Shown here: positions 3,561 through 57,826 of the stretch, piece by piece
Layout: each line of letters opens with the position of its first letter
Numbering within the stretch: the stretch's first letter is position 1
Source of the DNA: Liolophura sinensis
Taxonomy: Eukaryota; Mollusca; Polyplacophora; Chitonida; Chitonidae
NCBI RefSeq assembly: GCF_032854445.1
Contig: NC_088301.1
Span: 1,674,001-1,738,000, forward strand
Direction of reading: 5' to 3'
DNA: 64,000 bases
The notes under the pieces: generated by a model
Seen by the model: the letters and a program-made list of their open reading frames with translations, nothing else
The model's database searches: none
What the model was told of the DNA's origin: nothing
Position numbers and translations under genes: made by a program

Positions 3561-3572
3561 GACCAGTTTTGA

Positions 3573-18800: not shown

Positions 18801-21800
18801 AAATCTATTCGAAATATAGAACCAAGTGGATTTTTTAAATCTCCATTTTCAGTGGTTTACAAAACTATGACTTCTTTCTGTGCCTGTCACCTCTCTGGAA
18901 GAATATACTTTATATATATAAAGCTTGTTCATTTCAGACTTATTTGTGAGACATTACTGAACAGTGAAAGTTTGGATTATAATCGTGGGTCTGTGTGGTG
19001 TGAGACATTTCAGCTGATCAAGAAGGTTCTAGGTGGTGTGGACTACAAGGTGAGTGGTAATATGGATTATAATTGTGGGTCTGTGTGGTGTGAGACATTT
19101 CAGCTGATCAAGAAGGTTCTAGGTGGTGTGGACTACAAGGTGAGTGGTAATATGGATTATAATTGTGGGTCTGTGTGGTGTGAGACATTTCAGCTGATCA
19201 AGAAGGTTCTAGGTGGTGTGGACTACAAGGTGAGTGGTAATATGGATTATAATTGTGGGTCTGTGTGGTGTGAGACATTTCAGCTGATCAAGAAGGTTCT
19301 AGGTGGTGTGGACTACAAGGTGAGTGGTAATATGGATTATAATTGTGGGTCTATGTGGTGTGAGACATTTCAGCTGATCAAGAAGGTTCTAGGTGGTGTG
19401 GACTACAAGGTGAGTGGTAATATGGATTATAATTGTGGGTCTGTGTGGTGTGAGACATTTCAGCTGATCAAGAAGGTTCTAGGTGGTGTGGACTACAAGG
19501 TGAGTGGTAATATGGATTATAGCTGTGGGTCTGTGTGGTGTGAGACATTTCAGCTGATCAAGAAGGTTCTAGGTGGTGTGGACTACAAGGTGAGTGGTAA
19601 TATGGATTATAATTGTGGGTCTGTGTGGTGTGAGACATTTCAGCTGATCAAGAAGGTTCTAGGTGGTGTGGACTACAAGGTGAGTGGTAATATGGATTAT
19701 AATTGTGGGTCTGTGTGGTGTGAGACATTTCAGCTGATCAAGAAGGTTCTAGGTGGTGTGGACTACAAGGTGAGTGGTAATATGGATTATAATTGTGGGT
19801 CTGTGTGGTGTGAGACATTTCAGCTGATCAAGAAGGTTCTAGGTGGTGTGGACTACAAGGTGAGTGGTAATATGGATTATAATCGTGGGTCTGTGTGGTG
19901 TGAGACATTTCAGCTGATCAAGAAGGTTCTAGGTGGTGTGGACTACAAGGTGAGTGGTAATATGGATTATAATTGTGGGTCTATGTGGTGTGAGACATTT
20001 CAGCTGATCAAGAAGGTTCTAGGTGGTGTGGACTACAAGGTGAGTGGTAATATGGATTATAATTGTGGGTCTGTGTGGTGTGAGACATTTCAGCTGATCA
20101 AGAAGGTTCTAGGTGGTGTGGACTGCAAGGTGAGTGGTAATATGGATTATAATTGTGGGTTTGTGTGGTGTGAGACATTTCAGCTGATCAAGAAGGTTCT
20201 AGGTGGTGTGGACTACAAGGTGAGTGGTAATATGGATTATAATCGTGGGTCTGTGTGGTGTGAGACATTTCAGCTGATCAAGAAGGTTCTAGGTGGTGTG
20301 GACTGCAAGGTGAGTGTTAATATGGATTATAATTGTGGGTCTGTGTGGTGTGAGACATTTCAGCTGATCAAGAAGGTTCTAGGTGGTGTGGACTACAAGG
20401 TGAGTGGTAATATGGATTATAATTGTGGGTCTGTGTGGTGTGAGACATTTCAGCTGATCAAGAAGGTTCTAGGTGGTGTGGACTACAAGGTGAGTGGTAA
20501 TATGGATTATAATTGTGGGTCTGTGTGGTGTGAGACATTTCAGCTGATCAAGAAGGTTCTAGGTGGTGTGGACTACAAGGTGAGTGGTAATATGGATTAT
20601 AATTGTGGGTCTGTGTGGTGTGAGACATTTCAGCTGATCAAGAAGGTTCTAGGTGGTGTGGACTACAAGGTGAGTGGTAATATGGATTATAATTGTGGGT
20701 CTATGTGGTGTGAGACATTTCAGCTGATCAAGAAGGTTCTAGGTGGTGTGGACTACAAGGTGAGTGGTAATATGGATTATAATTGTGGGTCTATGTGGTG
20801 TGAGACATTTCAGTTTTTCAAGAAGGTTCTAGGTGGTGTGGACTACAAGGTGAGTGGTAATATGGATTATAATCGTGGGTCTGTGTGGTGTGAGACATTT
20901 CAGCTGAGCAAGAAGGTTGTTGGTGGTGTGGACTACAAGGTGAGTGGTAATATGGATTATAATCGTGGGTCTGTGTGGTGTGAGACATTTCAGCTGATCA
21001 AGAAGGTTCTAGGTGGTGTGGACTACAAGGTGAGTGGTAATATGGATTATAATCGTGGGTCTATGTGGTGTGAGACATTTCAGTTTTTCAAGAAGGTTGT
21101 TGGTGGTGTGGACTACAAGGTGAGTGGTAATATGGATTATAATTGTGGGTCTATGTGGTGTGAGACATTTCAGCTGATCAAGAAGGTTCTAGGTGGTGTG
21201 GACTACAAGGTGAGTGGTAATATGGATTATAATTGTGGGTCTGTGTGGTGTGAGACATTTCAGCTGATCAAGAAGGTTCTAGGTGGTGTGGACTACAAGG
21301 TGAGTGGTAATATGGATTATAATCGTGGGTCTGTGTGGTGTGAGACATTTCAGCTGATCAAGAAGGTTCTAGGTGGTGTGGACTACAAGGTGAGTGGTAA
21401 TATGGATTATAATTGTGGGTCTGTGTGGTGTGAGACATTTCAGCTGATCAAGAAGGTTCTAGGTGGTGTGGACTACAAGGTGAGTGGTAATATGGATTAT
21501 AATCGTGGGTCTGTGTGGTGTGAGACATTTCAGCTGATCAAGAAGGTTCTAGGTGGTGTGGACTACAAGGTGAGTGGTAATATGGATTATAATTGTGGGT
21601 TTGAATTTGACATTGATTTACTTTGCTGAGTTATCATTACTGCTTTTGATATAAGATGTGGAGTTTGAGCAAAGTTAAAGCTTTAACACACAACCTGTGA
21701 TTTCCACCGTCAAGGTGCCAGTTATCAAATGATTCCTGTTTTGTTTTTTATCTAAATAATAGAAAAAATTATTAAAACCTTTTTAGCCTGTAGTATTCTG

Positions 21801-24800: not shown

Positions 24801-27800
24801 TGGTAGACTTCTGGAGTTATACTTGACAGTGTTGCTGGCATCTTCAAAGTGAAATATTTGCAAGTGTGGCGTAAAAACACAAGCATTAAGCTTGTGATTT
24901 GCTTGTATTCTGGTGTTGTGTTCAACTCTGTAAATTCTAAGGTGTTTTGAACTAGTGTATATTAACTTTAAATTTTATTGAAAAGTATTGTGAAAATAGG
25001 AGAGACCTTGATAATGTAATTAACACGTAGATCTTTTACATGATACATTAATTGCAGTAATTTCATCATTCATGTGCAGCTAAAAGGTCGAAATCTGAAG
25101 AAGGGCCGGAATCACCTGATGTGGGTTCTCTTACAGTTTATCTCTGGCAGTATACAGAAAAACCCGGTAAGACATTTCCCATGGGAAACAGACCTGACAT
25201 TTAATGGAATATGGACAGATAATTCTCCATGAAATGCAGACCTGTCATTTTGTCATGGGATACAGACAGGTCATTCCAACATGGGATACAGGCAGGTCAT
25301 TACCCATGTAATACAGACAGGTCCTTACCCATGGAATACAGAAATGTCATTTCACATGGAATACAGACAGTAAGTTTTCATGGGATACAGACAGGTCATT
25401 CCCCATGGAACACAGAAAAGTAATTTACCATGCAATACAAACAGGTCATTTCCCATGGAATACAGACAGGTTATTCCCCATGAAATACTGACAGGTCTTT
25501 CCCCATGGAACACAGACAGGTCAGTTCCCGTGAATACAGACAGTTTTTTCCCCATGGAATACAGACAGGTTATTCCCCATGGAATACAAACAGGTCATTC
25601 CCTCTTAGGATACAGACAGCTCATTCCCCATGGAATACAGAAAAGTCATTTCTCAATCAATGCGAACAGGTTATTCCCCATGGAATACAGACAGGTCAGT
25701 TCCCATGCAATACAGACAGGTTATTCCCCATGGAATACACACTCAGGTCATTTCCCATGGAATACAGACAGATCCTTTCCACATGGGATACAGACAGGTC
25801 ATTTCCCATGGAATACAGACAGGTCATTTCCCATGGAATACAGACAGATCATTCCCTCTTGGGATACAGACAGCTCATTCCCCATGGAATACAGAAAAGT
25901 CATTTCCCATGCAATACAAACAGGTCATTCCCCATTAAATACAGACAGGTCAGCTCTCATGCAATACAGACAGGTTATTCCCCAAGGAATACACACTCAG
26001 GTCATTCCCCATGGAATACAGACAGATCATTTCCACATGGGATGCAGACAGGTCATTTCCCTTGGAATACAGAAATGTCATTTCACATGCAATACAAACA
26101 GGTTATTCCCCTGGAATACACCCCACATGGGATACAAACCCATGTCATCCATTTAAAATCACATATTCTTAAATGAATATATAATTGAGAATTACCACAA
26201 GGTTTGTTAAAAGTGATCCCAGACCCATGGATAATAATAGTTGCTCTACCTTATTTGTCCATGTTTTAGCTGGCGGATTTCCTGCCTGTGATGAAGCTGT
26301 ACGACCTCCTGTACTCAGACATTGAAGTCCTGCCCGTGCCTGACGTCAACAAGTCGGTGTCAACCCATGATATGGCCATCACCTGTATCTGGATACACCT
26401 CAACAAGAAGGCACAGTCAGACAAAGTGAGGCTACAAAGACCTATCCCAACAGTGCTCAGTGAGCACATAGAGTAAGTACAGAGGCCACATCCCACAGTG
26501 CTCAGTGAACGCATAGAGTAAGTACAGAGGCCACATCCCACAGTGCTCAGTGAGCACATAGAGTAAGTACAGAGGCCACATTCCCACAGTGCTCAGTGAA
26601 CACATAGAGTGAGTACAGAGGCCCCATCCCACAGTGCTCAGTGAACACATAGAGTAAGTACAGAGGCCCCATCTCCACAATGCCTAGTGAACACATAGAG
26701 TAAGTACAGAGGCCCCATCCCCACAATGCCTAGTGAGCACATAGAGTAAGTACAGAGGCCACATCCCACAGTGCTTAGTGAACACATGGAGTAAGTAGAG
26801 AGGCCACATCCCCACAGTGCTCAGTGAACACATAGAGTAAGTACAGAGGCCCCATCCCACAGTGCTCAGTGAACACATAGAGTAAGTACAGAGGCCCCAT
26901 CCCACAATGCCCAGTGAACACATAGAGTAAGTACAGAGGCCCCATCCCACAGTGCTCAGTGAACACATAGAGTAAGTACAGAGGCCCCATCACACAATGC
27001 CTAGTGAGCACATAGAGTAAGTACAAAGGCCACATCCCCACAGTGCTCAGTGAACACATAGAGTAAGTACAGAGGCCCCATCCCACAGTGCTCAGTGAAC
27101 ACATAGAGTAAGTACAGACGCCACATTCCCACAGTGCTCAGTGAACACATAGAGTGAGTACAGAGGCCCCATCACACAATGCCTAGTGAGCACATAGAGT
27201 AAGTACAAAGGCCACATCCCCACAGTGCTCAGTGAACACATAGAGTGAGTACAGAGGCCCCATCTCCACAATGCCTAGTGAGCACATAGAGTAAGTACAG
27301 AGGCCCCATCCCCACAGTGCTCAGTGAACACATAGAGTGAGTACAGAGGCCCCATCCCACAGTGCTCAGTGAACACATAGAGTAAGTACAGAGGCCCCAT
27401 CCCACAGTGCTCAGTGAACACATAGAGTAAGTACAGAGGCCACATTCCCACAGTGCTCAGTGAACACATAGAGTGAGTACAGAGGCCCCATCTCCACAAT
27501 GCCTAGTGAGCACATAGAGTAAGTACAGAGGCCCCATCCCCACAGTGCTCAGTGAACACATAGAGTAAGTACAGAGGCCACATTCCCACAGTGCTCAGTG
27601 AACACATAGAGTGAGTACAGAGGCCCCATCACACAATGCCTAGTGAACACATAGAGTAAGTACAAAGGCCACATCCCCACAGTGCTCAGTGAACACATAG
27701 AGTGAGTACAGAGGCCCCATCCCACAGTGGTCAGTGAACACATAGAGTGAGTACAGAGGCCCCATAACACAATGCCTAGTGAGCACATAAAGTACAGAGG

Positions 27801-42800: not shown

Positions 42801-45800
42801 CTACATGTACATGTATATCTATTAGAGAAACCTTATTATCTAGAAGGTGCTACATGTACATGTATATCTATTAGAGAAACCTTATTACCTAGAAGGTGCT
42901 ACATGTACATGTATATCTATTAGAGAAACCTTATTATCTAGAAGGTGCTACATGTACATGTATATCTATTAGAGAAACCTTATTACCTAGAAGGTGCTAC
43001 ATGTACATGTATATCTATTAGAGAAACCTTATTACCTAGAAGGTGCTACATGTACATGTATATCTATTAGAAACCTTATTACCTAGAAGGTGCTACATGT
43101 ACATGTATATCTATTAGAGAAACCTTATTACCTAGAAGGTGCTACATGTACATGTATATCTATTAGAGAAACCTTATTACCTAGAAGGTGCTACATGTAC
43201 ATGTATATCTATTAGAGAAATCTTATTACCTGGCAGATACTACATGTATGTTTTTGCCAGCGTCCATTTGTCTCTGTCTGTTAACCACTTCAAGGAAAAG
43301 TTATGGATGAATTTGGAGGAAATGTTGTTGACAGCTTGACCTTGACCTTGGTCCATGCACCCATCCATTAAATCTGATGGAGATCTGCTGGAATTGTGTA
43401 GATAATTCATCATATTTGTGAGATTGGTCACAAGTGCTAAGTATTGTCTTTTTGTGTGAGACTGAGCACATTTAGCTGTGGCAGAGGTTTGCATGTATGT
43501 GTCTTAATTTTGCTTGTTACTGGACTGTTATCTCTGTATTAAAAAATGTGTAAAAACATATCGTGAATTTTTGTTACATCAAAGTCATTTAGTAGGGAAT
43601 CAAGACATTTTTGAAATTATTGTACATTTCATGTTATCTTGTGTTTTTCCTATTGAACAGAAGTACAGTGAGAATTTCTACTACGAGGGCTCCCAAGACG
43701 CCAACAGTCCCAACCAGCATCCGTACCTGCCGGTGTATTTTGGCAATGTCTGCCTCAGGTTTCTGCCCGTACGTTCTCTCTTCACCTTTTCTCTGTCCTG
43801 TTCTGGGAGTCTGTTTTACATGTAAGTTGTAACTGATGAATATGTGTAGTTCAGATTTGTACGGAAATGTGTACGGAATTGGAAGGACATTGACCAGGTT
43901 GTGCCGACACGTTTCAGAAAACAATGTGACATTTGCTGGGGAGAGAGGGTCCTTACTGGCTGGTATGGCCTATCAGTGACTTTGCTGCAGCCAGTCAGCT
44001 TCTCACCAGTGATGTTGGCTCACTTGTTCCACGGCAGATTTCAGTCAGGTACCTCAGGTCAAGGGAGCTAAGGGAAGTGGTTCTCAAGGCTCTCAGTTTC
44101 ATCCATGCATTAGACATAAATATAGGTGACAGTTGTTTGCATTTGGTTTGATGTTTGTCAGGTTCTGGATATTGTCATTCATCGATTCCTGGAGTTACCA
44201 CCTGTGGGGAAGTCCCTGGAGAAGATTCTGGAACACCTAGGAGGACTGTACAAGTTCCATGGTGAGTACTTGTACTCTAGTAGCTTTTTAGTCAAACTGA
44301 AATTCCTTTTGTATAATAGTATGTATTTGGATGGATCGAGTAGTACTATTTCTGTCTGGCTTACTTTTTAATACTTTTTGGAATTAAAGATACTTGCATG
44401 TACCTCTCGAAGTCTAGGACACGTGAGGTATGATTTCAAACTGGGCCTTGGACAGGCAATTTCAGAACAATTCTAGAGTGTTGGCATTAGGGAACATGTA
44501 TAAATGAATGAATATGAAATGATGGTAAAAGTATCAGCACACATGTAAAACATTACACTTTGTGGTCTAATATACATGTGGAGAAATATGTAATTGTTTA
44601 CTGTTCTTCAGTTCTACTGTGGCTACAGTACACGTGATTTTATTATTTCCAGACCGCCCCATCACCTACTTGTACAATACTCTACATTACTATGAGAGGA
44701 AGTTAGCATCAAGGCCTGCACTTAAGAGGAAGCTGGTGCACTCTATTACAGGTACGTGTATGCTAGTCTTGATTACAAATCAAACAAACACACCACTTAC
44801 CTGTACAATACTCTACATTATTATGAGAGGAAGTTGGCATTAAGGCTATTTACAAATCAGACAAACACATCACCTACCTGTACAACATTTTATTGCAGGT
44901 AAGTTAGACTTGATTACAGATCAGACAAATACATCACTTACTGTACAACACTCTATTACAGGTGAGTTAGACTTGATTACAGATCAGACAAACTTATCAC
45001 CTACATGTTCAACACTCTATTACAGGTGAGTTATACTTGATTACGGATCAGACAAACACATCACCTACATGTACAGCACTCTATTACTGGTGAGTTAGAC
45101 TTGATTACAAATCAGACAAACACGTCACTTACCTGTACAACACTCTATTACAGGTGAGTTAGACTTGATTACAGATCAGGCAAACACATCACTTACTGTA
45201 CAACACTCTACTACTGGTGAGTTAGACTTGATTACAGATCAGACAAACACAGTATACATCTGTTATCTGGATGTGTATTTCAGGTGCTCTGAAGGACATC
45301 AGACCAGCTAATTGGTGTCTATCAGAAGACTATCAGAAGTATCTACAGGAGCCAATTGAGGAGAGCAAATGGCTGCCCACCTCTGAGTACTATGTCAAGC
45401 TACTGGGCAGACTTGTGGATAATATCCTTTTGGAAGCAAGTTATTCAAAGTCATGGATATTAAAATATGTATACATAAATATGTATTTATTTAATTTATA
45501 TAGGATTGGTGGGATTATACTAAATTCACAAATTTTATCCTGCTTGATTGCGGTCATGTATCCTGCATGATTGTGGTCGTGTATTCTGCATGATTACAGT
45601 CATGTATTCTGCAGGATTGCGGTCTTGTATCCTGCAGGATTGTGGTATTGTATCCTGCATGATTGCGGTCTTGTATCCTGCAGGATTGCGATCATGTATC
45701 CTGCACGATTGCGGTCTTGTATCCTGCAGGATTGCATTCATGTATCCTGCATGATTGCGGTCATGTATCCTGCAGGATTGTGGTCGTGTATCCTGCAGGA

Positions 45801-48800
45801 TTGCATTCGTGTATTCTGCAGGATTGCGTTCGTGTATACTGCAGGATTGCGGTCTTGTATCCTGCAGGATTGTGGTATTGTATCCTGCAGGATTGCAGTC
45901 ATGTATGCTGCATGATTGTGGTCGTGTATCCTGCATGATTGCATTCGTGTATTCTGCAGGATTGCAGTCTTGTATACTGCAGGATTGCGGTCATGTATTC
46001 TGCAGGATTGCGGTCTTGTATCCTGCAGGATTGTGATCATGTATCCTGCACGATTGCGGTCTTGTATCCTGCAGGATTGCATTCATGTATCCTGCATGAT
46101 TGCGGTCATGTATCCTGCAGGATTGTGGTCGTGTATCCTGCATGATTGCATTCGTGTATTCTGCAGGATTGCAGTCTTGTATCCTGCAGGATTGCGGTCT
46201 TGTATCCTGCAGGATTGCAGTCATGTATCCTGCATGATTGCAGTCATGTATCCTGCATGATTGCAGTCATGTATCCTGCATGATTGTGGTCATGTATCCT
46301 GCATGATTGCATTCGTGTATTCTGCAGGATTGCAGTCTTGTATCCTGCAGGATTGCGGTCTTGTATCCTGCAGTATTGCGGTCTTAGGAAGAGGTGGATT
46401 TGAACACACAACTGCAGTAGTCCAGGACGACGGGACTCCCAGCAGTTGTCATTAGTCCTGTTTGCCTGTGAGGATCTAACCAGTGTCATAGTTGCCTTGA
46501 CCAGCTTCTCACATGTACATGTTGTCATGCTTAACTTGCATCTACCATAACCTTTTTCAGGAGTGATTTCTGTACCATTACACTTTAACATAACCATTGT
46601 CTATTTTCCTTTGTTACATTAGCGGCACTGAGTCTGTGGTGGTTAGTTTTGTGTAGATCCTCCCATTATTCTCTTATTACTAGCCTTAACTCATGGGTCA
46701 CCCTTGTCAGGTAAATCCCCACCCCCATTCCCCAACTGTGACTGGAGGTTTAACGAGTTCCCGAACCCTGCAGCACATGCTCTCCACGCCACCTGTGTGG
46801 AGCTGATGGCACTTCCTGTGCCTAGCCAGAGTGTGGGGGGTGCACTGCTTGATGTCATCTTTAAATGGTAAGTGTATGTACATATGGTGTTGAATGGAAA
46901 TCTTAACATATGATCTCTTGTAATAGCACTGTGTGTATTTGTCAAGGCAAAGATTATTAAGATTGCGTCAGTTAATTTCTCAAGTTCAGATATACACACA
47001 AGGCGTATATTCAGACATGGAAATTTTGTGTCACTTTTAGATCTTTATCGAGTCAAATTTTTTTTTCAGATAGTTTCTTTTTAAGTCTACATGTATATGT
47101 ACATTTGTATTCTTAAAGAAAGTCCACAAATTTAAAGACTTGTATGTACATTTGGTGAAAGTTTAAAGCATTTTGGCTTTTACAGATACTTTGTAGTGTC
47201 AGATTTGTTTATATTTTAAGAAAGTGGTATGATTAATCAGCTCACATGTAGACAAATGAATGAGCTGTCATCATTTTTCTCTCACTTTACCTCAGCTTAT
47301 CATCTCTCCACAGTGGCACTCAGCTGCCTAGAGACAAAATCATGTCCTGGATGAACGCAGTGGGCCTCGTCCTTACCGCTCTTCCTGTACGTAACCATGG
47401 TAACGTACGCACATGTGACGCACCAGCAGAGTATTCAGTGCAGTAAAAGTGGGTTTTACGTATAAGCCCAATGCACATATCATTTATCATCACTTCATGT
47501 CCTGAATTAGTCATACATTAACGGCCACGGGGCATTTGCCACGAATTTTCTATGTGCATCAAATGGAATATCAAGATTAAATTGTCACGCCATGGTTGTG
47601 TATGATGCATAAATCTGACAGCATATCACCTGTATGATATCACAGTATGAATGGATGGCCTGTAGATTTGAGCCTTGCTTTTTGTCCAAGTGGTCTAAAG
47701 CACACCACAGAACACCATCATCTCCTTGACAAGTCAGTCATATTTTCAAGTCTCGCTGTTCTAGGATCAGCTTCAGGTTTATGTACTACAATTTAAATAA
47801 CACGCAGCAAAGTGCCTTTTCCTCTTCCTCCACCCACCCTTTCCTGTGTGACACAGTGTGGAGTCCAATCCATAAACTGACAGCCATCGATTATTTGAAC
47901 AGAGATACTCAGAATGCTGTGAAAAACATCCTGAAAGCACTTCAGGCAAATAAATTGTGCATGCATCAGTTTTGAAAGATAAGCAATCAGACTTTATGAC
48001 ATTGCCTCTGGGTTGATATCTTGACGTCAGTCTTAATCCTGTGAATTGAATCTTTCTAAATGTCCTTACTTATCTAAAAGGAAAATGTTTTAAAGAGGTG
48101 CTCAGTTAAGTAAGTCATCAGAATAACAGTAATAAATGTGATTATTAACTTCCCTTGTGGAAGCCAATCCAGAACCTATATGTCAAGAGTTGCTTCAAGC
48201 TGTAAGAAGATCACTGAAGGTTATACTGTTCAACTTTTATATAGAGAGCTTTGAGAAGTAGTGTTTAAGTAAGATTCCAGATAATCCAAGGCCTTATAAA
48301 CAGGAATTCTCCAGGAATTTCCTTTAATCCAATATTTGCATGCTCAAGATTGTATTTGTTTTTTTATAGTTAATTCTTCTATGATGTGTTTCTGTGTGGT
48401 TCAGTGGACTTCCTTCATATATTTTTTTTTTGTATGGTGCCTTAGCCTTTTATTTAGATAACCCATGCACTTTAGTATATAAGTTTGTCCCAAAAGCAAT
48501 GAACACACACAAGTACACTTTTAGACTTGTGTATATGTGTATGTCTCAGAAGCAATGAACACACAAAGGTACACTTTTAGAAATGCTACCTGTATTTTGA
48601 CAGGACACATATTGGCAGGTGCTGAACGAGCGCATAGTGGAGGTGATGCAGTGTCAGATTTTCAGCCAGTCCATGACAAACATCAGCCCGTTTCAGCTGT
48701 TTGACTTCTCCGTCTGTCACTCAGTCTTTGCAGAGATGCATCTGACGTACATGTTGGCCCTGTCACATGCGGTTTGGCACCATGCCAGCATTGGTCAACT

Positions 48801-51417
48801 CACACTCATTCCTCAGTAAGTGTCAATATCTTCACCTGCCTCTTTGCTGTGGTTACTTCCCTTGAATGTGCAAGCCTTTTTGGATCCAGGCTGCCAGCAG
48901 AGTTTCAGAAAAGCATCAAGTTATCTTGTGATACATGAATTCCAAAAGTAAATCAGTCAATCAATGATCAGTCATATCAATCAGTGGTTTATTTGAGGTT
49001 AAATGTTGTTTCGGAAATTGGTCCGCAGCAGCCATTATGGTTCATGACTGGCATATGAATGTTTGAGGACCTGTATTCACAAAAGTGTTTGCACACGCCT
49101 GTGACAGAGTTTGTTTTTATAATTTTCTAGATTTATGAAAGAGAGGCTGAAGCCAATAATAAAGACAGAGGAGCAGTTTCTCTACCTGTGCCACCTTGTT
49201 GGACCCTTCTTACAGCGCTTCCATGCAGAGAGGACGCGCTGTCTTCTAGAGGTGAGAACAGCACATACCGGGGTGGGAAGTCTGAAAATGAGAGAGGGAA
49301 ACCTGAAACTGGGATGGGGAACCAGAAGCTGAGAGAAGGAAACCTGAAATTGGGAGATGTGAAACCTCATAACTTGAGAGGGAAACCAGAAACTAGTAAA
49401 GGGAAACCTGAAACTAGTAAAGGAAAGCATGAAACTGGGAGAGGGGAAACCTGGAATTGGGAGAGTAGAGAACCTCATAACGGAACAGGGAAACCTAAAA
49501 CTAATAAAGGAAAACCTTAAACTAGTAAAGGAAAACATGAAACTGGGAGAGGGGAAACCTGGAATTGGGAGAGTGGGAAACCTCATAACAGAACTGGGAA
49601 ACTTGAAACTAATAAAGGAAAACCCTAGTAAAGGGAATCCTGAAATTTGGAAAGGATGTAGATGTGTTTTGCCTCTCACACATGGACATAAAGACTATAA
49701 AACAACTGCTGTCAGACATTTGTCTTCGATGGCGCTCTGTTCAGAAGCCAAGCATGAATTTGTTATTGAATACAGGGACAAACATGTGCCATTTAACTGA
49801 GTAACTGAATCCATAACATCTTTCACAATGTGGCAAGCTTACATGTAAATAAATATATGATTAAAGTAAACAGCACACACATTTCTGAAAGAAAGGTAAG
49901 AAAACATACCTTTCAGGACACTGTAACATGCGTACACATATCATTTTTGTTGTTATCAGATCAAACGTACACAAAAATGTAACCAGATTTGTTCCATCAT
50001 GGCTTCAAGTCTTAAAATCCAGGCAGTTTAGGAGATATTAACAGAATGTATTGGTGCAAATGAAAAGTAAAAAAATATCAGCAACCTTCCAGGAAGAAGG
50101 CATGGAAATCTACCCTATTTCTTCTAAATTTGGGACACCTGGTCTGGTTATTTTAGCTAATACATAAGTAATTCTATAGCAGGAAAATTTAGTTTCTTGT
50201 TTTTTCACATGGTTGTACCATCTAATGAACAACATACTCATATCTTTACTTTTCCAAAAGGCTGGTAGCGAAATGTAATATTCTACTTTCAACACTATTA
50301 ATATCTGTCCCAAATTTTAGAAGAATTTGGGTATTTATTTTTTATTTATGTGATTGGTATTTTATGCCACATTCAAGAATATTTTACTTCTATGGCTTTA
50401 GCTGTGGGGAAACTCGCAGGTTGCTTCATAGTAAGCTCGGGGGCCTCGGTGGCTCAGTTGGTTAGCGCGCTAGCGCAGCGTAATGACCCAGGAGTCTCTC
50501 ACCAATGCGGTCGCTGTGAGTTCAACTCCAGCTCATGCTGGCTTTCTCTCCAGCCGTATGTGGGAAGGTCTGTCAGCTACCTGCGGATGGTCGTGGGTTT
50601 CCCCCGGGTTCTGCCCGGTTTCCGCCCACCATAATGCTGGCCGCCGTTGTATAAGTGAAATATTCTTGAGTACGGCGTAAAACCCCAATTAAGAAGAAAA
50701 AAAAAACAAAGTCATAGTAAGCTGCAATAAGGAGCATGTATAATGTGTGTTTCAGCTGACTGTGGAGCTGTATGAGATTCTGGAAATCATAGACAGGTCA
50801 TGTGATCACTTGAGATACATTGACCCCATCACAGATTTCCTGTATCCTTTTGAATGATTTTAATTGCTCTCTCAGCAGTGGGGAATGCTTTGAATCCTCA
50901 GGAGACGTTCATGTAGATTGTTGTTTCCTGGTGATCTTGTTGTTTCCTTGTGATCTTATAGTTTCCTTGAGATCTTGTTGTTTCCTTGTGATCTTTTTTC
51001 CTTGTAATATTGTTGTTTCCTTGAGATATTGTTGTTTCCTTGTGATCTTCTTTCCTTGTGATCTTGTTGTTTTCTTGAGATCTTGTTTTTTCCTTTGTGA
51101 TCTTGTTGTTTCATTTGTGATCTTGTTGTTTCCTTTGTGATCTTGTTGTTTCCTTGTGATCGTGTTGTTACATGTATCCAGCTTTTCCTTCCTTTCATCA
51201 TTTTTTTCAGGCCTTGTATTATAATTCAGAAGTGACCAGCTTTTGAGACTTTATTCTTGACCTTGACCTTAATCTCAGCTATCACATCAAATATATCTTT
51301 GTTGGGGATGGTGTCAAGTCAGAAGTTGGAAAAGTCATCATGAATTTACGACCAGCTCTCAAGTATCGCTTACGATTCATCTCTCATATAAATGTGGATG
51401 AACCTTTATCAGCCTGA
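15778..51417 (+). CDS. MED23: Mediator complex subunit 23 (gene span start to stop; 34 exons listed separately)
   Basis: MED23 (Sur-2, CRSP130) is a nuclear Mediator tail subunit that receives signals from activators such as ELK1 and passes them to RNA polymerase II. I joined 34 exons whose phases all fit, giving about 1351 aa; human MED23 is about 1368 aa and collinear over its length. Diagnostic segments include LLWQHISSQLIFFVLFQF, SLLDSLTVHAKM, ALAPALVETYSRLLVY, IESLGIKGFISQLLPN, HYRVQLLSYLHSLA, DIIAHFSMQGTQPLFL, LPVYFGNVCLRFLP and HAVWHHASIGQLTLIP. The protein is alpha-helical without catalytic residues. The N-terminus differs from vertebrates and the C-terminus is short, ending HINVDEPLSA. 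Introns are loaded with minisatellites, several copied from exon 3' ends; two introns look U12-type. Confidence 0.97.
16855..17122 (+). mobile_element. tRNA-derived SINE (family 1), full length, with target-site duplication
   Basis: Starts GCGTCGGGCCTCCGTGGCTGA, contains the body CCCACCATAATGCTGGCTGC, and ends ATTCTTGAATACGGTGTAA then AAATAAATGAATAAAT. The 10-bp direct repeat ATTTATTCAA flanks it at 16845-16854 and 17123-17132. It sits in MED23 intron 1. Confidence 0.92.
17338..17457 (+). CDS. MED23: MED23 exon 2 (aa 32-71)
   Basis: Acceptor ATTTCAG|AACCAG, phase 0 at both ends, donor CCTGCT|GTGAGC. Contains FWDILAHSPETKKWKKEYAL and aligns with the vertebrate N-terminal segment that ends in FRQFWGGL. 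Confidence 0.88.
17898..18022 (+). CDS. MED23: MED23 exon 3 (aa 72-113)
   Basis: Acceptor CTCCAG|GACAAT. Encodes DNHEIAMKCYVSWVYRQRN then LLFDLLEGLVRD, collinear with human SHEQCIQWIVKF and FLYDCLAMAVE. Donor CCCAA|GTAAGC, leaving phase 2. Confidence 0.92.
18174..18450 (+). repeat. ~30-35 bp irregular minisatellite, about 8 copies
   Basis: Degenerate units of the form GGTTTCCCCTATTGAGGGCA(G)GCTT repeat in MED23 intron 3. No coding segment was found between this and exon 4. Confidence 0.85.
18716..18808 (+). mobile_element. 3' fragment of a family-1 SINE
   Basis: CCTCCCACCATGATGCTGG, then TATAAGTGAAATATTCTTGAC, AAACACCAATCAAATAAAT. Only the last ~90 bp are present. Confidence 0.8.
18938..19049 (+). 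CDS. MED23: MED23 exon 4 (aa 113-150)
   Basis: Acceptor CATTTCAG|ACTTATT. LICETLLNSESLDY and QLIKKVLGGVDYK match human LVCESLINSDTLEW and KLVRKIIGGVDYK. Donor AAG|GTGAGT at 19050. Its 3' two-thirds is the first unit of the 90-bp array that follows. The 925-codon ORF here (18852-21629) is exon plus array, not the mature protein, unless downstream donors are used. Confidence 0.93.
18973..21603 (+). repeat. 90-bp array copied from the 3' part of MED23 exon 4 with its 5' splice site, 29 full copies plus a partial
   Basis: Each unit holds 77 bp of exon 4 (TGGATTATAA to GACTACAAG) plus GTGAGTGGTAATA of the intron. Period is exactly 90 bp. Variation is by substitution (AATTGT/AATCGT, GTGTGG/ATGTGG, CAGCTGATC/CAGTTTTTC), never by an indel or stop, so the frame stays open for 2.6 kb. 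AAGGTGAGT is kept in every copy. Each unit also contains ACATTTCAG, an acceptor-like word. Confidence 0.98.
21630..22107. other. MED23 intron 4, 3' part, no feature recognised
   Basis: Ordinary AT-rich intron between the exon-4 array and exon 5. Small ORFs show no homology I recognise. Confidence 0.6.
22108..22206 (+). CDS. MED23: MED23 exon 5 (aa 151-183)
   Basis: Acceptor TTTTCAG|GGCTGT; encodes GCRDLLRLILEKCQMIPN, as human GVRDLLKVILEKILTIPN. Donor ATCAGT|GTGAGT. Phase 0 both ends. Confidence 0.95.
22483..22587 (+). CDS. MED23: MED23 exon 6 (aa 184-218)
   Basis: Acceptor CCTGTAG|GTTGTG; encodes VVGYILDRNACLLPSYFAVN, like human IAYILERNACLLPAYFAV. Donor CACTGG|GTAAGT. Confidence 0.95.
22759..22828 (+). 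CDS. MED23: MED23 exon 7 (aa 219-242)
   Basis: Acceptor TTGCAG|AAAATG; encodes KMGRLLSDFVQGFRPAAQM. Donor ATAG|GTCAGT, phase 1 out. Confidence 0.93.
23325..23437 (+). CDS. MED23: MED23 exon 8 (aa 242-279)
   Basis: Acceptor TTTTCAG|GCAGAT; encodes RSHLMPIVGHSLSTGNVWRL and LSGPLPYNK, as human RCSLLPVV and GLLPYDK. Donor AACAAG|GTATTG. Confidence 0.93.
23627..23852 (+). mobile_element. Diverged family-1 SINE, near full length
   Basis: Head GCGTCTGTGGCCAAGTTGG, TTAGCGTGCCAGCG, B-box-like GAGTTCAAGTCGAG, body GTTGGCCGCCATTG, tail ATTCTTGAGTAATACGGCG and CAATCAAATAAAT. In MED23 intron 8; no clear target-site duplication seen. Confidence 0.88.
23993..24088 (+). CDS. MED23: MED23 exon 9 (aa 280-311)
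   Basis: Acceptor GTTGCTAG|GAATATCAG. A second AG 9 bp on (ATATCAG|GAGCCG) would drop three residues in frame. The first is preferred because EYQEPQTALLRY matches the length of human DLFEPQTALLRY. Continues VLEQPYSRDMICSMLGLNKQ; donor AAACAG|GTACAG. Confidence 0.9.
24462..24659 (+). CDS. MED23: MED23 exon 10 (aa 312-377)
   Basis: Acceptor GGCCAG|GCCAAA; encodes AKQRCPVLEDQLVDMVVLAM and LLWQHISSQLIFFVLFQF, almost identical to human. Donor GAAAAG|GTAGAT. Confidence 0.97.
24780..24895 (+). mobile_element. Degenerate SINE tail
   Basis: TTGCTGGCATCTTCAAAGTG, AAATATTTGCAAGTGTGGCG, TAAAAACACAAGC resemble the family-1 3' end. Much decayed. Confidence 0.45.
25080..25166 (+). CDS. MED23: MED23 exon 11 (aa 378-406)
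   Basis: Acceptor GTGCAG|CTAAAA; encodes LKGRNLKKGRNHLMWVLLQF and ISGSIQKNP. Donor CCG|GTAAGA. An array starts within a few bases of this donor. Confidence 0.96.
25170..26138 (+). repeat. ~28-30 bp minisatellite adjoining the exon-11 donor, about 33 copies
   Basis: Units like CCCATGGAATACAGACAGG then TCATTC, with higher-order order (similar runs near 25580-25760 and 25850-26010). The first unit begins 5 bp after the GT of the donor but carries no exon bases. Plus ORFs of 258 and 223 codons come from this unit. Confidence 0.94.
26270..26472 (+). CDS. MED23: MED23 exon 12 (aa 407-474)
   Basis: Acceptor GTTTTAG|CTGGCG; encodes LADFLPVMKLYDLLYSD, PVPDVNKSVSTHDMAITCIW and PIPTVLSEHIE. Donor ATAGA|GTAAGT, phase 2 out. 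The last ~50 bp are the founder of the next array. Confidence 0.96.
26424..30985 (+). repeat. ~44-bp array copied from the 3' end and donor of MED23 exon 12, about 100 copies
   Basis: Unit: CATCCCACAGTGCTCAGTG, AACACATAGA|GTAAGTACAGAGG. The exon itself reads CCTATCCCAACAGTGCTCAG, TGAGCACATAGA|GTAAGTACAGAGG, so the unit is exon end plus donor plus ~13 intron bases. Some units carry AATGCCTAGTGAGC variants, and about 600-bp blocks repeat (28.4-29.1 and 29.0-29.7 kb). Many minus ORFs of 60-170 codons (CSLSTVGWGLCTYSM and like) are shadows of it. Confidence 0.97.
31126..31190 (+). CDS. MED23: MED23 exon 13 (aa 474-496)
   Basis: Acceptor TTTCAG|ATTTCTG joins GA|A to restore Glu. Encodes FLNQNTALTMNNYRIALICN; donor GCTT|GTGAGT. 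Confidence 0.95.
31515..31683 (+). CDS. MED23: MED23 exon 14 (aa 496-552)
   Basis: Acceptor CTTGCAG|ACAGTA; encodes STNTEYFNLPMSILVESING and PLPMSLLDSLTVHAKM. Donor ATGAG|GTAGGA. Confidence 0.97.
32252..32394 (+). CDS. MED23: MED23 exon 15 (aa 552-600)
   Basis: Acceptor TTCTCAG|CTTAATT; encodes LIHSIVTKVIRLAGNRGS, VALAPALVETYSRLLVYIEI. Donor ATCA|GTAAGT. Confidence 0.97.
32973..33147 (+). CDS. MED23: MED23 exon 16 (aa 600-658)
   Basis: Acceptor TTTCAG|GCCAGT; encodes QLLPNVFKSQAWGILHTLLE, MFSYRLHHIQPHYRVQLL and NHNQLHLC. Donor CTGTG|GTGAGT lies exactly at the join of two copies of the following repeat. Confidence 0.95.
33088..33390 (+). repeat. ~60-70 bp tandem copies of the 3' end and donor of MED23 exon 16, about 4-5
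   Basis: Exonic GAGTTACCTTCATTCCCTGG begins unit 1; unit 2 begins 62 bp later as GAGTTACCTCCCCTCCCTGG, whose first bases are part of the GTGAGT donor. Further copies start near 33223, 33284 and 33345. The copies keep CCTCACACAAACC and, in two cases, GGTGAGTTACC. Confidence 0.92.
33622..33791 (+). CDS. MED23: MED23 exon 17 (aa 658-715)
   Basis: Acceptor TTTCAG|CATGGA completes TG|C (Cys). Encodes MESTALRLITGLGSSEVQPQ and EELNRALVLTLAQAMHVT; donor ACAG|GTGAGA. Confidence 0.97.
34284..34481 (+). CDS. MED23: MED23 exon 18 (aa 715-781)
   Basis: Acceptor GTGTCAG|GTTCGG; encodes WCKDILVNIMHNTPHNWSSH, TLECFPPSLAEFFHKSSLP and VDTEYKKWK. Donor AAGA|GTAAGA. Confidence 0.96.
34981..35047 (+). CDS. MED23: MED23 exon 19 (aa 781-803)
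   Basis: Acceptor CTTTCAG|CCATGG; encodes MANESDIIAHFSMQGTQPLF. Donor TTGTG|GTAAGG. Confidence 0.96.
35590..35925 (+). repeat. 24-bp minisatellite, about 14 copies
   Basis: Unit AGGTAGGTGAAATCACCAGG plus TCAG, in MED23 intron 19. It is a multiple of three and reads open on both strands (88 and 78 codons); no exon match. Confidence 0.95.
36068..36121 (+). CDS. MED23: MED23 exon 20 (aa 803-821)
   Basis: Acceptor ATTTCAG|CATCTT; encodes ILWKNLLDDNRIPPTAY, as human LLWKMLLETDHINQIGY. Donor ACAA|GTAAGT. Confidence 0.93.
36271..36970 (+). repeat. 70-bp minisatellite, 10 copies
   Basis: Unit starts ATTTTATCACTCAATCATGC and includes ACAGCTTGGTGG and ACTTGACACATG. The period is exactly 70 bp; the last three copies diverge (GGGAAATTTTC). 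In MED23 intron 20. Confidence 0.96.
37215..37265 (+). other. Coding-like fragment in MED23 intron 20
   Basis: ACAAACAG is followed by a stretch reading RNVEDLELYKYLVKSS, which looks protein-like and runs into the 57-bp array. It does not correspond to MED23 and may be a cryptic exon or an inserted fragment of another gene. Unrecognised. Confidence 0.3.
37270..37962 (+). repeat. 57-bp minisatellite, 12 copies, open in two plus frames
   Basis: Unit TCATTCCTCCATGAACTCC, AGTTCCCCATGTTCTTGCCC, GTCGTGTATTATAAAGTG. One frame gives HSSMNSSS/PCSCPSC, the other FLHELQFPMFLP/VVYYKV; the second has the more ordinary protein composition. Copies are almost identical. Not part of MED23 coding by position or phase. 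Confidence 0.95.
38148..38256 (+). CDS. MED23: MED23 exon 21 (aa 821-857)
   Basis: Acceptor GTTGTCAG|AGTGCT; encodes VLDRLGPRLLSLHLRTFADY, LVQEFSSSAATQLVNR. Donor AACAGG|GTAAGC; the exon end founds the next array. Confidence 0.96.
38240..38965 (+). repeat. 56-bp (and longer variant) array copied from the 3' end and donor of MED23 exon 21, about 11 copies
   Basis: The exon end CAGCTTGTCAACAGG|GTAAGCAGCAGAA is matched by repeated AACTTGTGAACAAG|GTAAGCAGCAAAA, followed by GGAAAGTCAAGGCCTAATGC. Some units are ~100 bp and include CTTACCTTTACCTTCAGTTCC. Confidence 0.94.
39236..39307 (+). CDS. MED23: MED23 exon 22 (aa 858-881)
   Basis: Acceptor TTCTTAG|ATGGTT; encodes MVGALNDLVWKCNVVTIERL and ILCL. 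Donor TTG|GTAAGT. Confidence 0.96.
39651..39761 (+). CDS. MED23: MED23 exon 23 (aa 882-918)
   Basis: Acceptor AACCAG|GCACTG; encodes ALRNLEGNEAQVSFFIIQLL and PPDFKMRLTDFIRE. Donor GAG|GTGAGT. The unique 5' third shows this first copy is the real exon. Confidence 0.97.
39689..40815 (+). repeat. 81-bp array copied from the 3' two-thirds and donor of MED23 exon 23, about 14 copies
   Basis: Each unit runs TTCTTCATCATACAGCTGTT to TTCATCAGAGAG|GTGAGTTAG. Almost all downstream copies keep GAG|GTGAGT; the last has GAG|GTCAGT. The unit is a multiple of three, but GTGAGTTAG puts a TAG in frame, so retention would truncate the protein. Confidence 0.97.
40850..41455 (+). repeat. ~40-43 bp minisatellite, about 14 copies
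   Basis: Unit TTATGATGTACTGGTTAAGC, TCTCTCACTGAATGCAAG. Directly follows the exon-23 array in the same intron; no exon match. Confidence 0.95.
41903..41962 (+). CDS. MED23: MED23 exon 24 (aa 919-938)
   Basis: Acceptor GTTCCAG|AATTCT; encodes NSPEHWLQNNWHEKHMAFHR. Donor CACAGA|GTGAGT. Confidence 0.97.
42035..43245 (+). repeat. 49-bp minisatellite, about 24 copies
   Basis: Unit GTGCTACATGTACATGTATA, TCTATTAGAGAAACC, TTATTACCTAGAAG. Earlier copies are more diverged (GGCAGGTGC), the middle is homogeneous. Rich in the palindrome TACATGTA. In MED23 intron 24. Confidence 0.96.
43661..43768 (+). CDS. MED23: MED23 exon 25 (aa 939-974)
   Basis: Acceptor TTGAACAG|AAGTAC; encodes KYSENFYYEGSQDANSPNQ and HPYLPVYFGNVCLRFLP. 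Donor CCC|GTACGT. Confidence 0.97.
44162..44261 (+). CDS. MED23: MED23 exon 26 (aa 975-1008)
   Basis: Acceptor TTTGTCAG|GTTCTG; encodes VLDIVIHRFLELPPVGKSLE and HLGGLYKFH. Donor CATG|GTGAGT. Confidence 0.97.
44653..44751 (+). CDS. MED23: MED23 exon 27 (aa 1008-1041)
   Basis: Acceptor ATTTCCAG|ACCGCC; encodes RPITYLYNTLHYYERKLASR and LKRKLVHSIT. Donor ACAG|GTACGT. Confidence 0.96.
44660..45265 (+). repeat. ~60-64 bp array fusing two parts of MED23 exon 27 with its donor, about 7 copies
   Basis: The first downstream copy still has exonic TACAATACTCTACATTA, TTATGAGAGGAAGTTGGC. Later units join exonic CATCACCTACATGTACAAC directly to CTCTATTACAG|GTGAGTTAG, skipping the middle of the exon. ACAG|GTGAG or CTG|GTGAG is kept in most copies. 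Confidence 0.92.
45284..45421 (+). CDS. MED23: MED23 exon 28 (aa 1041-1087)
   Basis: Acceptor ATTTCAG|GTGCTC; encodes ALKDIRPANWCLSEDYQKY and YYVKLLGRLVD. Ends GTGGATA|ATATCCTTTT, an AT-type U12 donor; the final A with exon 29 CC gives Thr, as in human RLVDTM. Confidence 0.93.
45422..46701 (+). other. MED23: U12-type AT-AC intron of MED23
   Basis: The 5' splice site is ATATCCTTTT, the exact U12 consensus. Near the 3' end, GCCTTAACTC (46683-46692) fits the U12 branch site, with the intron ending GGTCAC 12 bases after the presumed branch A. These borders restore the reading VDT-LSGKSP, which matches human VDTMAGKSP; GT-AG alternatives do not fit the protein as well. Confidence 0.9.
45541..46382 (+). 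repeat. 23-bp minisatellite, about 36 copies, inside the U12 intron
   Basis: Unit GGATTGCGGTCTTGTATCC plus TGCA, starting about 120 bp after the AT-type donor. ORFs of 64-133 codons on both strands are repeat translations. Confidence 0.95.
46702..46867 (+). CDS. MED23: MED23 exon 29 (aa 1087-1142)
   Basis: Starts after an AC 3' splice site; encodes LSGKSPPPFPNCDWRFNEF, PNPAAHALHATCVELMAL. Donor AAATG|GTAAGT. Confidence 0.93.
47314..47386 (+). CDS. MED23: MED23 exon 30 (aa 1142-1166)
   Basis: Acceptor CTCCACAG|TGGCAC; encodes GTQLPRDKIMSWMNAVGLVL, TALP. Donor CCT|GTACGT. Confidence 0.95.
47387..48603. other. MED23 intron 30, nothing recognised
   Basis: 1.2 kb of AT-rich intron without arrays, one of the few long array-free introns of the gene. 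The ORF at 47781-47975 has no recognisable homology. Confidence 0.55.
48604..48815 (+). CDS. MED23: MED23 exon 31 (aa 1167-1237)
   Basis: Acceptor TTGACAG|GACACA; encodes YWQVLNERIVEVMQCQ, FQLFDFSVCHSVFAEMHL and LALSHAVWHHASIGQLTLIP. Donor CCTCA|GTAAGT. Confidence 0.97.
49131..49251 (+). CDS. MED23: MED23 exon 32 (aa 1237-1277)
   Basis: Acceptor TTCTAG|ATTTAT; encodes FMKERLKPIIKTEEQFLYLC, HLVGPFLQRFHAERTRCLLE. Donor GAG|GTGAGA. Confidence 0.97.
49275..49635 (+). repeat. ~22-24 bp degenerate minisatellite with higher-order duplication
   Basis: Units like GAAACCTGAAACTGGGAGAG(GG). A roughly 110-bp block near 49400-49500 recurs near 49510-49620. Begins ~25 bp after the exon-32 donor but has no exon bases. 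Gives a 165-codon minus ORF. Confidence 0.88.
50344..50425 (-). mobile_element. 3' fragment of a family-1 SINE, inverted
   Basis: ATTGGTATTTTATGCCACAT, TCAAGAATATTTTACTTCTA is the reverse complement of the SINE tail. A second, complete SINE is inserted just to the right in the opposite orientation. Confidence 0.8.
50438..50711 (+). mobile_element. tRNA-derived SINE (family 1), full length, well preserved, with target-site duplication
   Basis: Head GGGGGCCTCGGTGGCTCAGT, TGGTTAGCGCGCTAGCGCAG; body CACCATAATGCTGGCCGCCG; tail ATTCTTGAGTACGGCGTAAA and poly(A). The 12-bp direct repeat TCATAGTAAGCT flanks it at 50426-50437 and 50712-50723. The least decayed copy in the window. Confidence 0.95.
50756..50841 (+). 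CDS. MED23: MED23 exon 33 (aa 1278-1306)
   Basis: Acceptor GTTTCAG|CTGACT; encodes LTVELYEILEIIDRSCDHLR, YIDPITDF. Ends TTCCT|GTATCCTTTT. Confidence 0.95.
50842..51278 (+). other. MED23: Probable U12-type GT-AG intron of MED23
   Basis: The 5' splice site GTATCCTTTT matches the U12 consensus RTATCCTTT. The 3' end TATTCTTGACCTTGACCTTA, ATCTCAG has several U12 branch-like words (TTCTTGAC, CCTTGAC, CCTTAAT) 8-18 bases before the AG. The junction gives DFLYHIKYIF, as human DFLYHMKYMF. Confidence 0.85.
50925..51165 (+). repeat. ~19-bp minisatellite, about 13 copies
   Basis: Unit GATCTTGTTGTTTCCTTGT. Lies inside the second U12-like intron and contributes the ORFs at 50820-51201. Confidence 0.92.
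51279..51417 (+). CDS. MED23: MED23 last recognised coding exon (aa 1306-1351 and stop)
   Basis: Acceptor AATCTCAG|CTATCA; encodes HIKYIFVGDGVKSEVGKVIM and NLRPALKYRLRFISHI, as human LKPALKLRLRFITHI. The final NVDEPLSA then TGA (51415-51417) has no vertebrate counterpart and lies in the first unit of a tandem repeat. A further coding exon downstream cannot be excluded. Confidence 0.92.
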
Positions 51418-51830
51418 AGAATTCCTCACATAAATGTGCATCAGCCTGAAGAATTCCTCACACAAATGTGCATCAGCCTGAAGAATTTCTCACATGAATG
51501 TGCATCAGCCTGAAGAATTCCTCACATAAATGTGCGTCAGCCTGAAGAATTCCTCACATAAATGTGCATCAGCCTGAAGAATTCCATGTAATTGTGGATG
51601 AACCTTTATCAGCCTGAAGAATTCCTCACATAAATGTGCATCAGCCTGAAGAATTCCTCACATAAATGTGCATCAGCCTGAAGAACTCCTCACATAAATG
51701 TGCATCAGCCTAAAGAATTCCTCACATAAGTGTGCATCAGCCTGAAGAATTCCATGTAATTGTGGATGAACCTTTATCAGCGTGAAGAGTTCCTTGCATA
51801 AATAAATATAAATCTAGGTTGAAGAATTTA
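51381..51830 (+). repeat. ~32-bp array copied from the MED23 stop-codon region
   Basis: The gene's end CTCATATAAATGTGGATG, AACCTTTATCAGCCTGAAG is repeated as CTCACATAAATGTGCATC, AGCCTGAAGAATTC. Full-length copies with GTGGATGAACCTTTATCAGC recur near 51590 and 51762. AATAAA at 51801-51806 is a possible poly(A) signal. Confidence 0.93.
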
Positions 51831-52500
51831 CCAAATAATTGTGAATGAACCTGCATCAGCATGAAGAATTTCTCACATGAATATGGACAAATCTTCAGCA
51901 GAATCAAGAATTCCTCATGTAATTGAGGATGAACCTGCATCAGCATGAAGAATTTCTCACATGAATATGGACAAATCTTCAGCAGAATCAAGAATTCCTC
52001 ATGTAATTGAGGATAAACCTGCATCAGCATGAAGAATTTCTCACATGAATATGGACAAATCTTCAGCAGAATCAAGAATTCCTCATGTAATTGAGGATGA
52101 ACCTGCATCAGCATGAAGAATTTCTCACATAAATATGGACAAATCTTCAGCAGAATCAAGAATTCCTCATGTAATTGAGGATGAACCTGCATCAGCATGA
52201 AGAATTTCTCACATGAATATGGACAAATCTTCAGCAGAATCAAGAATTCCTCATGTAATTGAGGATGAACCTGCATCAGCATGAAGAATTTCTCACATGA
52301 ATATGGACAAATCTTCAGCAGAATCAAGAATTCCTCATGTAATTGAGGATGAACCTGCATCAGCATGAAGAATTTCTCACATGAATATGGACAAATCTTC
52401 AGCAGAATCAAGAATTCCTCATGTAATTGAGGATGAACCTGCATCAGCATGAAGAATTTCTCACATGAATATGGACAAATCTTCAGCAGAAACAAGAAGC
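51831..52500 (+). repeat. 84-bp array, about 8 copies, related to the MED23 stop-codon repeat
   Basis: Unit combines GATGAACCTGCATCAGCATG, AAGAATTTCTCACATGAATA, TGGACAAATCTTCAGCAG and AATCAAGAATTCCTCATG. GATGAACCT-CATCAGC-TGAAGAATT-CTCACAT is the same core as the preceding array. A 252-codon minus ORF (84 bp = 28 codons) is a by-product. Confidence 0.94.
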
Positions 52501-52935
52501 ATTAGTGTGAAGAATTTACCGCATAAGTTCGGATGAACCTTCATTAGCGTGAAGAATTTACCACATAAGTTTGAATGAACCTGCATTAGTGTGAAGAATT
52601 TACCGCATAAGTTTGGATGAACCTTCATTAGCGTGAAGAATTTCCCACATAAATTTGAATGAACCTGCATTAGTGTGAAGAATTTACCGCATAAGTTCGG
52701 ATGAACCTTCATTAGCGTGAAGAATTTACCACATAAGTTTGAATGAACCTGCATTAGTGTGAAGAATATACCGCATAAGTTTGGATGAACCTTCATTAGC
52801 GTGAAGAATTTCCCACATAAATTTGAATGAACCTGCATCAGTGTGAAGAATTCCCAAATATTTGTGGAGGATCCTTTATTAGTGTGAAGAATTCAAACAT
52901 ACTTGTGGATGGACGTACATCAGCTTTAAGAGTAT
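52501..52935 (+). repeat. 42-bp array, about 9 copies, same core
   Basis: Unit GAAGAATTTACCGCATAAG, TTCGGATGAACCTTCATTAG, CGT, alternating with a diverged partner (TTTGAATGAACCTGCATTAG) to give an 84-bp higher order. The 125-codon minus ORF is repeat translation. Confidence 0.92.
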
Positions 52936-57462: not shown

Positions 57463-57826
57463 ACCGGCCCGGATAGCACAGTTGGTAGAGCGTCCGCTTC
57501 GGGAGCGGTAGATCCAGGATCAATCCTTGATCGAGTCACACCTAAGACTAAAAGAGGAAGTTGTAACTTCCTCGCCTGGCGTTCAGCGTGAAGGGGATAG
57601 TGCAACGACTGGTTGACCCGTATCAGTATAATGGCTCGGGCGGGGCGGCTTACTTGCCTTCGGTAAGTCGTCTCAGTGAAGCAGCACTAAATAAAAGAGC
57701 GGTGGAAATCCGTCCTGCAACAAGGAGGCACATTACACTTACATGCACCCTAATGATTCCTTCGTCGTCATATGACTGAAAAATTGTTGAGTACGACGTT
57801 AAACCCCAAGCACTCACTCACTCACT
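57463..57826 (+). mobile_element. tRNA-derived SINE (family 2), 364 bp, with target-site duplication
   Basis: Head GGCCCGGATAGCACAGTTGG, TAGAGCGTCCGCTTCGGGAG is tRNA-like, with A box TAGCACAGTTGG and B-box-like TTGATCGAGTC. A long unique body ends TTGTTGAGTACGACGTTAAA, CCCCAAG and (CACT)n. The 11-bp direct repeat CTGACGCATTG flanks it (57452-57462, 57827-57837). Not a functional tRNA: the D/anticodon/T arms are degenerate and sequence continues 290 bp. Its end shares TTGAGTACG.CGT.AAA with family 1. Confidence 0.92.

Follow-up and report, generated by a model that had tools for sequence, protein, structure and literature searches.

Two genes on the forward strand

The window analysed here, a 64-kb stretch of the genome of the chiton Liolophura sinensis (Mollusca, Polyplacophora), carries two genes on its forward strand, one for a myosin regulatory light chain (MRLC) and one for MED23 (Table 1). 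The MRLC product has 171 amino acids and is identical to a protein named for Liolophura sinensis. Exons E2 to E34 of MED23 join into a single open frame of 1317 amino acids, which matches the Pfam family Med23 with 1888.6 bits and aligns near full-length, over residues 3-1315, to MED23 chains in the PDB. The first exon, E1, was not found in the 64-kb window. The best identity among the 120 protein-database matches listed (of 472) is 68%, so none of the listed proteins is the product of this very gene. The introns of the two genes total 37.4 kb, of which 46% is tandem array sequence.

Some other features of the locus deserve a record. The joined reading frame uses the splice sites of MED23 introns 28 (45422-46701) and 33 (50842-51278); intron 28, an AT-AC intron with the 5' site ATATCCTT, and intron 33, with the 5' site GTATCCTT, both resemble U12-type introns. 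A stretch of intron 32 (about 50446-50700) is SINE-like. E2 and E14 share a 27-nt match in antisense orientation, and a tRNA-like sequence at 57467-57538 scores 30.6 bits with the Rfam tRNA model, while ARAGORN found no tRNA there.

Table 1. Genes, amplified exons and boundary arrays in the window (positions are those of the 64-kb window)
Feature	Position	Strand	Description
MRLC exons	3967-4153, 9164-9325, 9918-9985, 11663-11761	+	Myosin regulatory light chain; gene model
MED23 coding exons E2-E34	17338-51417	+	33 exons, 1317 codons plus TGA
MED23 exon 4	18938-19049	+	Founder of 90-bp array; last 77 nt repeated (TRF), up to 87 (blastn)
E4 array	18973-21600	+	TRF: 90 bp x 29.2
MED23 exon 12	26270-26472	+	Founder of 46-bp array; repeat takes in at least its last 29 nt
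E12 array	26444-30988	+	TRF: 46 bp x ~100; 410-bp period too
MED23 exon 16	32973-33147	+	Last 62 nt form the repeat unit
E16 array	33083-33397	+	TRF: 62 bp x 4.9
MED23 exon 21	38148-38256	+	3' end and donor recur in intron
E21 arrays	38345-38949	+	TRF: 38345-38737, 56 bp x 7.0; 38677-38949, 106 bp x 2.6
MED23 exon 23	39651-39761	+	Founder of 81-bp array; last 72 nt repeated
E23 array	39693-40818	+	TRF: 81 bp x 13.9; GT kept in 14/14 units
MED23 exon 27	44653-44751	+	Source of composite unit in intron 27
E27 partial copy and array	44791-45251	+	Array 44850-45251; TRF: 64 bp x 6.3
MED23 last exon with TGA	51279-51417	+	Coding end HINVDEPLSA
Stop-codon-end array	51385-52893	+	TRF blocks in succession: 32-, 42- and 84-bp units

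Exon ends amplified into the following introns

At six MED23 exons (E4, E12, E16, E21, E23 and E27) the 3' end of the exon and its donor have been amplified into the intron. This was the core of the original prediction, and both TRF and the junction test presented below bear it out, as they do the presence of several independent arrays. TRF agrees with the predicted unit lengths of 90 bp (E4), 62 bp (E16), 56 bp (E21) and 81 bp (E23); the E12 unit, given as 44 bp, measures 46 bp, and that of E27, given as 62 bp, measures 63-64 bp. Units of the E4 array consist of 77 exonic and 13 intronic bases, and the donor GT is kept in every one of its 29 units. Likewise, GT is kept in 94 of 100 units of the E12 array, in 11/11 of the E21 arrays and in 6/6 of the E27 array; with E16 and E23 included, the total for the six arrays is 157 of 165 units.

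The arrays do not all have the same anatomy. Each unit was expected to combine an exon end, the GT and a few intron bases, which does not apply to E16: there the unit is wholly exonic and flush with the boundary, the next copy opens the intron, and GT is kept in three of five units. The first copy, predicted to be continuous with the exon in every case, is so in the four contiguous arrays but not at E21 and E27, where 88 and 98 nt, respectively, separate the donor from the array. At E21, the 106-bp unit resembles the stretch running from the exon end to the array, so that the 56-bp unit has the appearance of a deletion derivative. At E27, positions 8-63 of the exon recur as a partial copy of 56 nt (44791-44846) ahead of the array, whose unit joins the exon start to the last exonic bases and donor; these units, too, look like deletion derivatives. 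The claim that the real exon is the founder of its array holds, since the conserved protein runs through the exon end.

Exon 11 was considered as the seat of a further donor array and rejected (z 0.6 in the exon-only test described below). A 25-bp array (25173-26120) begins a few bases past its donor (25166); as it has no significant exonic copy, it is either purely intronic or too diverged.

The coding end of the gene, with its stop codon, is repeated as well, in an array that extends to about 52893 (TRF) and not, as first given, to 51830. The motif TGAAGA[AG]T occurs in it 29 times, from 51415 to 52885. Here again the coding end looks like the founder, because an abalone protein ends at the same place with HINVEEPVSA, where the chiton sequence has HINVDEPLSA.

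Donors and acceptors within the window

In the junction test, 30 exonic and 12 intronic bases at each splice site were compared with the adjoining intron and scored against 200 dinucleotide shuffles. The six donors named above, out of 35, scored above every shuffle, against none of the 35 acceptors in the window (Fisher p = 0.025). The acceptor of E3 was borderline (p = 0.010), which is about the chance yield of 70 tests. An exon-only test returned the same six donors, with z from 3.8 to 21.2, and no acceptor above z 2.0. The next donors were those of MRLC exon C (z 2.6; p 0.13 in the junction test), which we rejected as a further case, and of E24 (z 2.5). A 21-bp array (8757-9162) adjoins the acceptor of MRLC exon B, with no exonic bases repeated.

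The excess of donor-crossing arrays had been said to need a statistical test. We set up a neutral model of tolerance, in which tandem duplications fall at random and are kept when they spare the mRNA, and applied it to 21 intronic arrays (18 in MED23 and 3 in MRLC). It predicts 2.48 donor-crossing arrays, whereas six are observed (P = 0.022); when the arrays are slid as they stand, 2.31 are expected against the four contiguous ones observed (P = 0.19). Both P values are post hoc, because the window was chosen for the pattern. Units are longer in the 6 donor-crossing arrays than in the 15 others (p = 0.035), and this fits random breakpoints. The amplified MED23 donors match the consensus at seven to nine of nine positions, against a mean of 6.7 in the other donors (p = 0.026); this is compatible both with a filter that keeps winning donors and with a donor that helps to initiate the array.

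Boundary arrays in other genes of the same genome

Four further genes of the same genome (609 Mb in 632 contigs), FANCD2, NCKAP1, WASHC5 and CYFIP, served as an out-of-sample set. Their splice sites were placed by script from HMM matches and submitted to the exon-only test, after which each match was inspected. The set covers 17 of 17 matched exons in FANCD2, 10 of 21 in NCKAP1, 11 of 14 in CYFIP and 10 of 21 in WASHC5, the last total being 33 HMM matches minus 12 array copies of one exon. Boundary copies were found at 4 of 47 donors (FANCD2 1/17, NCKAP1 0/10, WASHC5 2/9, CYFIP 1/11) and at 2 of 48 acceptors (FANCD2 0/17, NCKAP1 0/10, WASHC5 2/10, CYFIP 0/11), with no significant difference between the two (Fisher p = 0.44). 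They are thus present in three of the four genes: FANCD2, WASHC5 and CYFIP. Two donor cases, WASHC5 exon 9332 and CYFIP exon 7654, had weak scores (z 4.6 in both) and were accepted once inspected; leaving them aside, the strong cases are 2/47 donors and 2/48 acceptors. For FANCD2, a first pass had given 4 of 17 exon 3' ends, of which one stood once the splice sites were fixed, the rejected cases being intronic arrays that start just past the donor, or low complexity.

WASHC5 offers both kinds of array. Its donor array (125 bp, 12.9 copies) appears in the HMM table as twelve extra matches downstream of one exon, each to its 3' part. Its two acceptor arrays (62 bp x 6.6; 66 bp x 36.8) are the mirror image of the donor arrays: located upstream of the exon, they have the real exon start as their last copy. 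Of the some 36 copies upstream of one acceptor, 31 are recognisable, and the exact TTTAGGTGAG junction is preserved in 18 of these.

Judging by the out-of-sample counts, arrays at exon boundaries are frequent in this genome and affect acceptors as well as donors; donor anchoring as a rule is not supported beyond the window. When the window and the four genes are pooled, boundary copies occur at 12 of 165 junctions over six genes, discovery gene included, and the split between 10/82 donors and 2/83 acceptors becomes significant (p = 0.018), an excess that rests largely on the discovery gene; the pool includes the window that prompted the study.

Minisatellites are dense beyond MED23 as well: in the neighbouring 200 kb of the same contig (C7:1738001-1938000), which served only to gauge array density, 18.9% of the sequence lies in tandem arrays with a period of at least 10. 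An array similar to that next to MRLC exon B, with 26-bp units, is found at an acceptor of CYFIP (L036, reverse strand, about 3135-3765).

Reading through the arrays

The MED23 frame is intact when the first donor of each array is used. Past that donor, an in-frame stop follows within 147 nt in five of the six arrays, so splicing mistakes would mostly feed decay. The exception is E4, where the exon frame stays open for 2577 nt beyond the donor; a 949-codon open frame (18780-21626) spans exon 4 and the entire 90-bp array. Compared with protein databases, the frame of the exon 4 array gave 41 candidates, none at E 0.001.

We looked for coding selection among the copies of E4 and E23. Synonymous changes are not in excess (they account for 4 of the 13 distinct variants in E4 and for 4 of the 14 in E23, against 3.2 expected in each), and stops are not in short supply (none seen in either, against 0.6 and 0.4 expected). 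The donor stretch is kept above average in E12 (6 of 46 windows are as good) and E21 (6 of 56), and not clearly so in the four other arrays.

Amplified exon ends are less similar to their orthologues (n = 7) than the remainder of the protein is (identity 0.584 versus 0.679). Faster protein change at these ends, through exchange with their arrays, was considered as a reading of this difference and rejected: the orthologues are variable there too, and a block test gave p = 0.067.

Origin and persistence of the arrays

The explanation that we favour, and regard as probable, combines ordinary minisatellite birth with tolerance through exon definition and makes the arrays 'mirages', a type known from lancelets and discussed below. 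A short tandem duplication would by chance span the edge of an exon; the duplicated segment would later expand and be homogenised through slippage or unequal exchange, and its copies would persist because the mRNA is unchanged. In general, exon definition is taken to favour the innermost pair of acceptor and donor across an exon. A duplicated donor would then be used in the copy closest to the acceptor of the exon, a duplicated acceptor in the copy closest to the donor, and the extra copies would remain intronic; at the gene end, the first in-frame stop would be used and the remaining copies would become 3' sequence. This single rule would account for every case. The anatomy of the arrays is observed; normal mRNA, this choice of sites and this route of duplication are inferred. 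One observation from in vitro work would fit poorly for short arrays: the 3'-most of two identical donors was reportedly favoured there.

The original prediction left two options: a mechanism that starts duplication at exon-intron borders, or tolerance of duplications that regenerate a working donor. The second is the one supported. The first is not needed, as random duplication already predicts 2.48 donor-crossing arrays in the window, and a donor-specific starting mechanism is unnecessary. The same figures also speak against tolerance, as six donors exceed that expectation (P = 0.022) and are lopsided with respect to acceptors (p = 0.025). A donor bias may therefore exist, in line with the pooled counts (10/82 versus 2/83, p = 0.018).

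A bolder version takes exon edges of this mollusc genome to be genuine hot spots at which minisatellites arise, more so at donors than at acceptors. Each array would hold tens of similar splice sites in competition, silenced by exon definition, and the process would be a recurrent cause of intron growth, shared with lancelets through convergence. We consider this possible but rather doubtful. It is unlikely that donors themselves are the hot spots, with duplication starting at 5' splice sites through, for instance, R-loops, U1-bound transcripts or recombination of donor-like sequences. Such a role would account for the six donors against no acceptor in the window, for the surplus over the tolerance model, for the pooled split and for the greater strength of the amplified donors. 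However, the difference is not significant out of sample (p = 0.44, or 2/47 against 2/48 for strong cases), acceptors and the stop-codon end are amplified too, and a donor-like seed one period upstream of the donor is present in just one of the four contiguous arrays tested, that of E16.

E16 also lends itself to another reading, by which a splice site would in certain cases have been created by the duplication itself, as happens when introns are gained through tandem duplication. From +2 on, its intron bases equal the exonic sequence one period upstream at 10 of 10 positions, a score reached by none of 1205 other exon windows. This would apply to E16 only, and we judge the reading quite unlikely.

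We give still less weight to the arrays being used, with alternative donors adding repeat-coded segments (30 amino acids per unit in exon 4, for example), a reading that we hold to be very improbable. The open frame of exon 4 and the GT kept in 157/165 units are what such use would predict, whereas the early stops in five of six arrays, the copies of E4 and E23, which bear no sign of coding selection, the above-average conservation of the donor stretch in E12 and E21 only, and the exon 4 array frame without a protein match at E 0.001 argue against it. That the arrays are an artefact is hardly credible, even if tandem arrays are hard to assemble and come here from a single assembly, in view of units that differ, mixed unit lengths, longer periods, and similar arrays on C11 (FANCD2), C8 (CYFIP) and 12 Mb off on C7 (WASHC5); exact copy numbers may nonetheless be wrong.

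Relation to lancelet mirages

No described class of this kind had been recognised in the original prediction, yet one exists. Mirages are minisatellite-like tandem duplications of exon-intron boundaries in the lancelet Adh3, globin and troponin C genes (PMC3087553, PMC3902484); Canestro et al. 2002 (doi 10.1093/nar/gkf386) is cited there. According to passages of these papers, both boundaries are hit, Adh3 shows length instability with somatic change, and the mechanism is called unclear (PMC3087553, PMC3902484), while Adh3 data and RT-PCR of globin suggest that splicing is undisturbed (PMC3087553). In lancelet PGBD5, exons 3 and 4 overlap with repeats of 60 and 108 bp, the first repeats adjoin 5' splice sites, copies number 2 or 7, and 3 or 6, depending on the assembly, and the authors consider that accurate splicing is not hindered (PMC3902484).

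The class of boundary arrays is thus already known from lancelets and is not new. As far as those passages describe the mirages, the chiton arrays resemble them in that the authentic exon adjoins copies whose units span the exon-intron boundary, many of these copies, although not all, keep splice signals (GT in 157/165), and both boundaries are affected, acceptors in WASHC5 but none of 35 in the window. TRF resolves the MED23 arrays as minisatellite-like tandem repeats within a gene, and a boundary-spanning unit occurs at six MED23 donors, plus FANCD2, WASHC5 and CYFIP. In contrast to the lancelet cases, these are arrays of a mollusc and not of a cephalochordate, a single gene carries six donor arrays together with a stop-codon array, one array reaches about 100 copies, and they are known from the sequence of one assembly. 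The PGBD5 repeats, as reported in the passages cited, have fewer copies than the MED23 arrays.

Tandem genomic duplication is also described as supplying splice sites when introns are gained (PMC4974935; Rogers 1989, via PMC3087553). The exonic unit of E16 resembles that process as so described; unlike it, the chiton duplications lengthen introns that are already there.

In a largely open-access literature, searched by titles, abstract starts or passages, we recognised no molluscan boundary array, and the passages on an abalone intron minisatellite, on earthworm metallothionein introns and on a chiton genome do not describe boundary arrays. What is possibly new is the presence of such arrays in Mollusca, their high density, an intron with about 100 similar donors, and the stop-codon case.

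Significance

These observations carry the mirage phenomenon from lancelets to a mollusc, where, with 12 of 165 junctions concerned, it is apparently a common state. They also hold a warning for annotation: in such genomes, copies within arrays can be mistaken for exons, and a gene predictor could call a giant exon from the 949-codon frame over the exon 4 array. The arrays are natural experiments in splice-site competition: the donor of MED23 E12 has about 100 similar copies downstream, and the WASHC5 acceptor with its some 36 upstream copies provides a second case. They could reveal how a splice site is chosen among near-identical ones, and such arrays may feed the growth of introns, isoforms or new introns.
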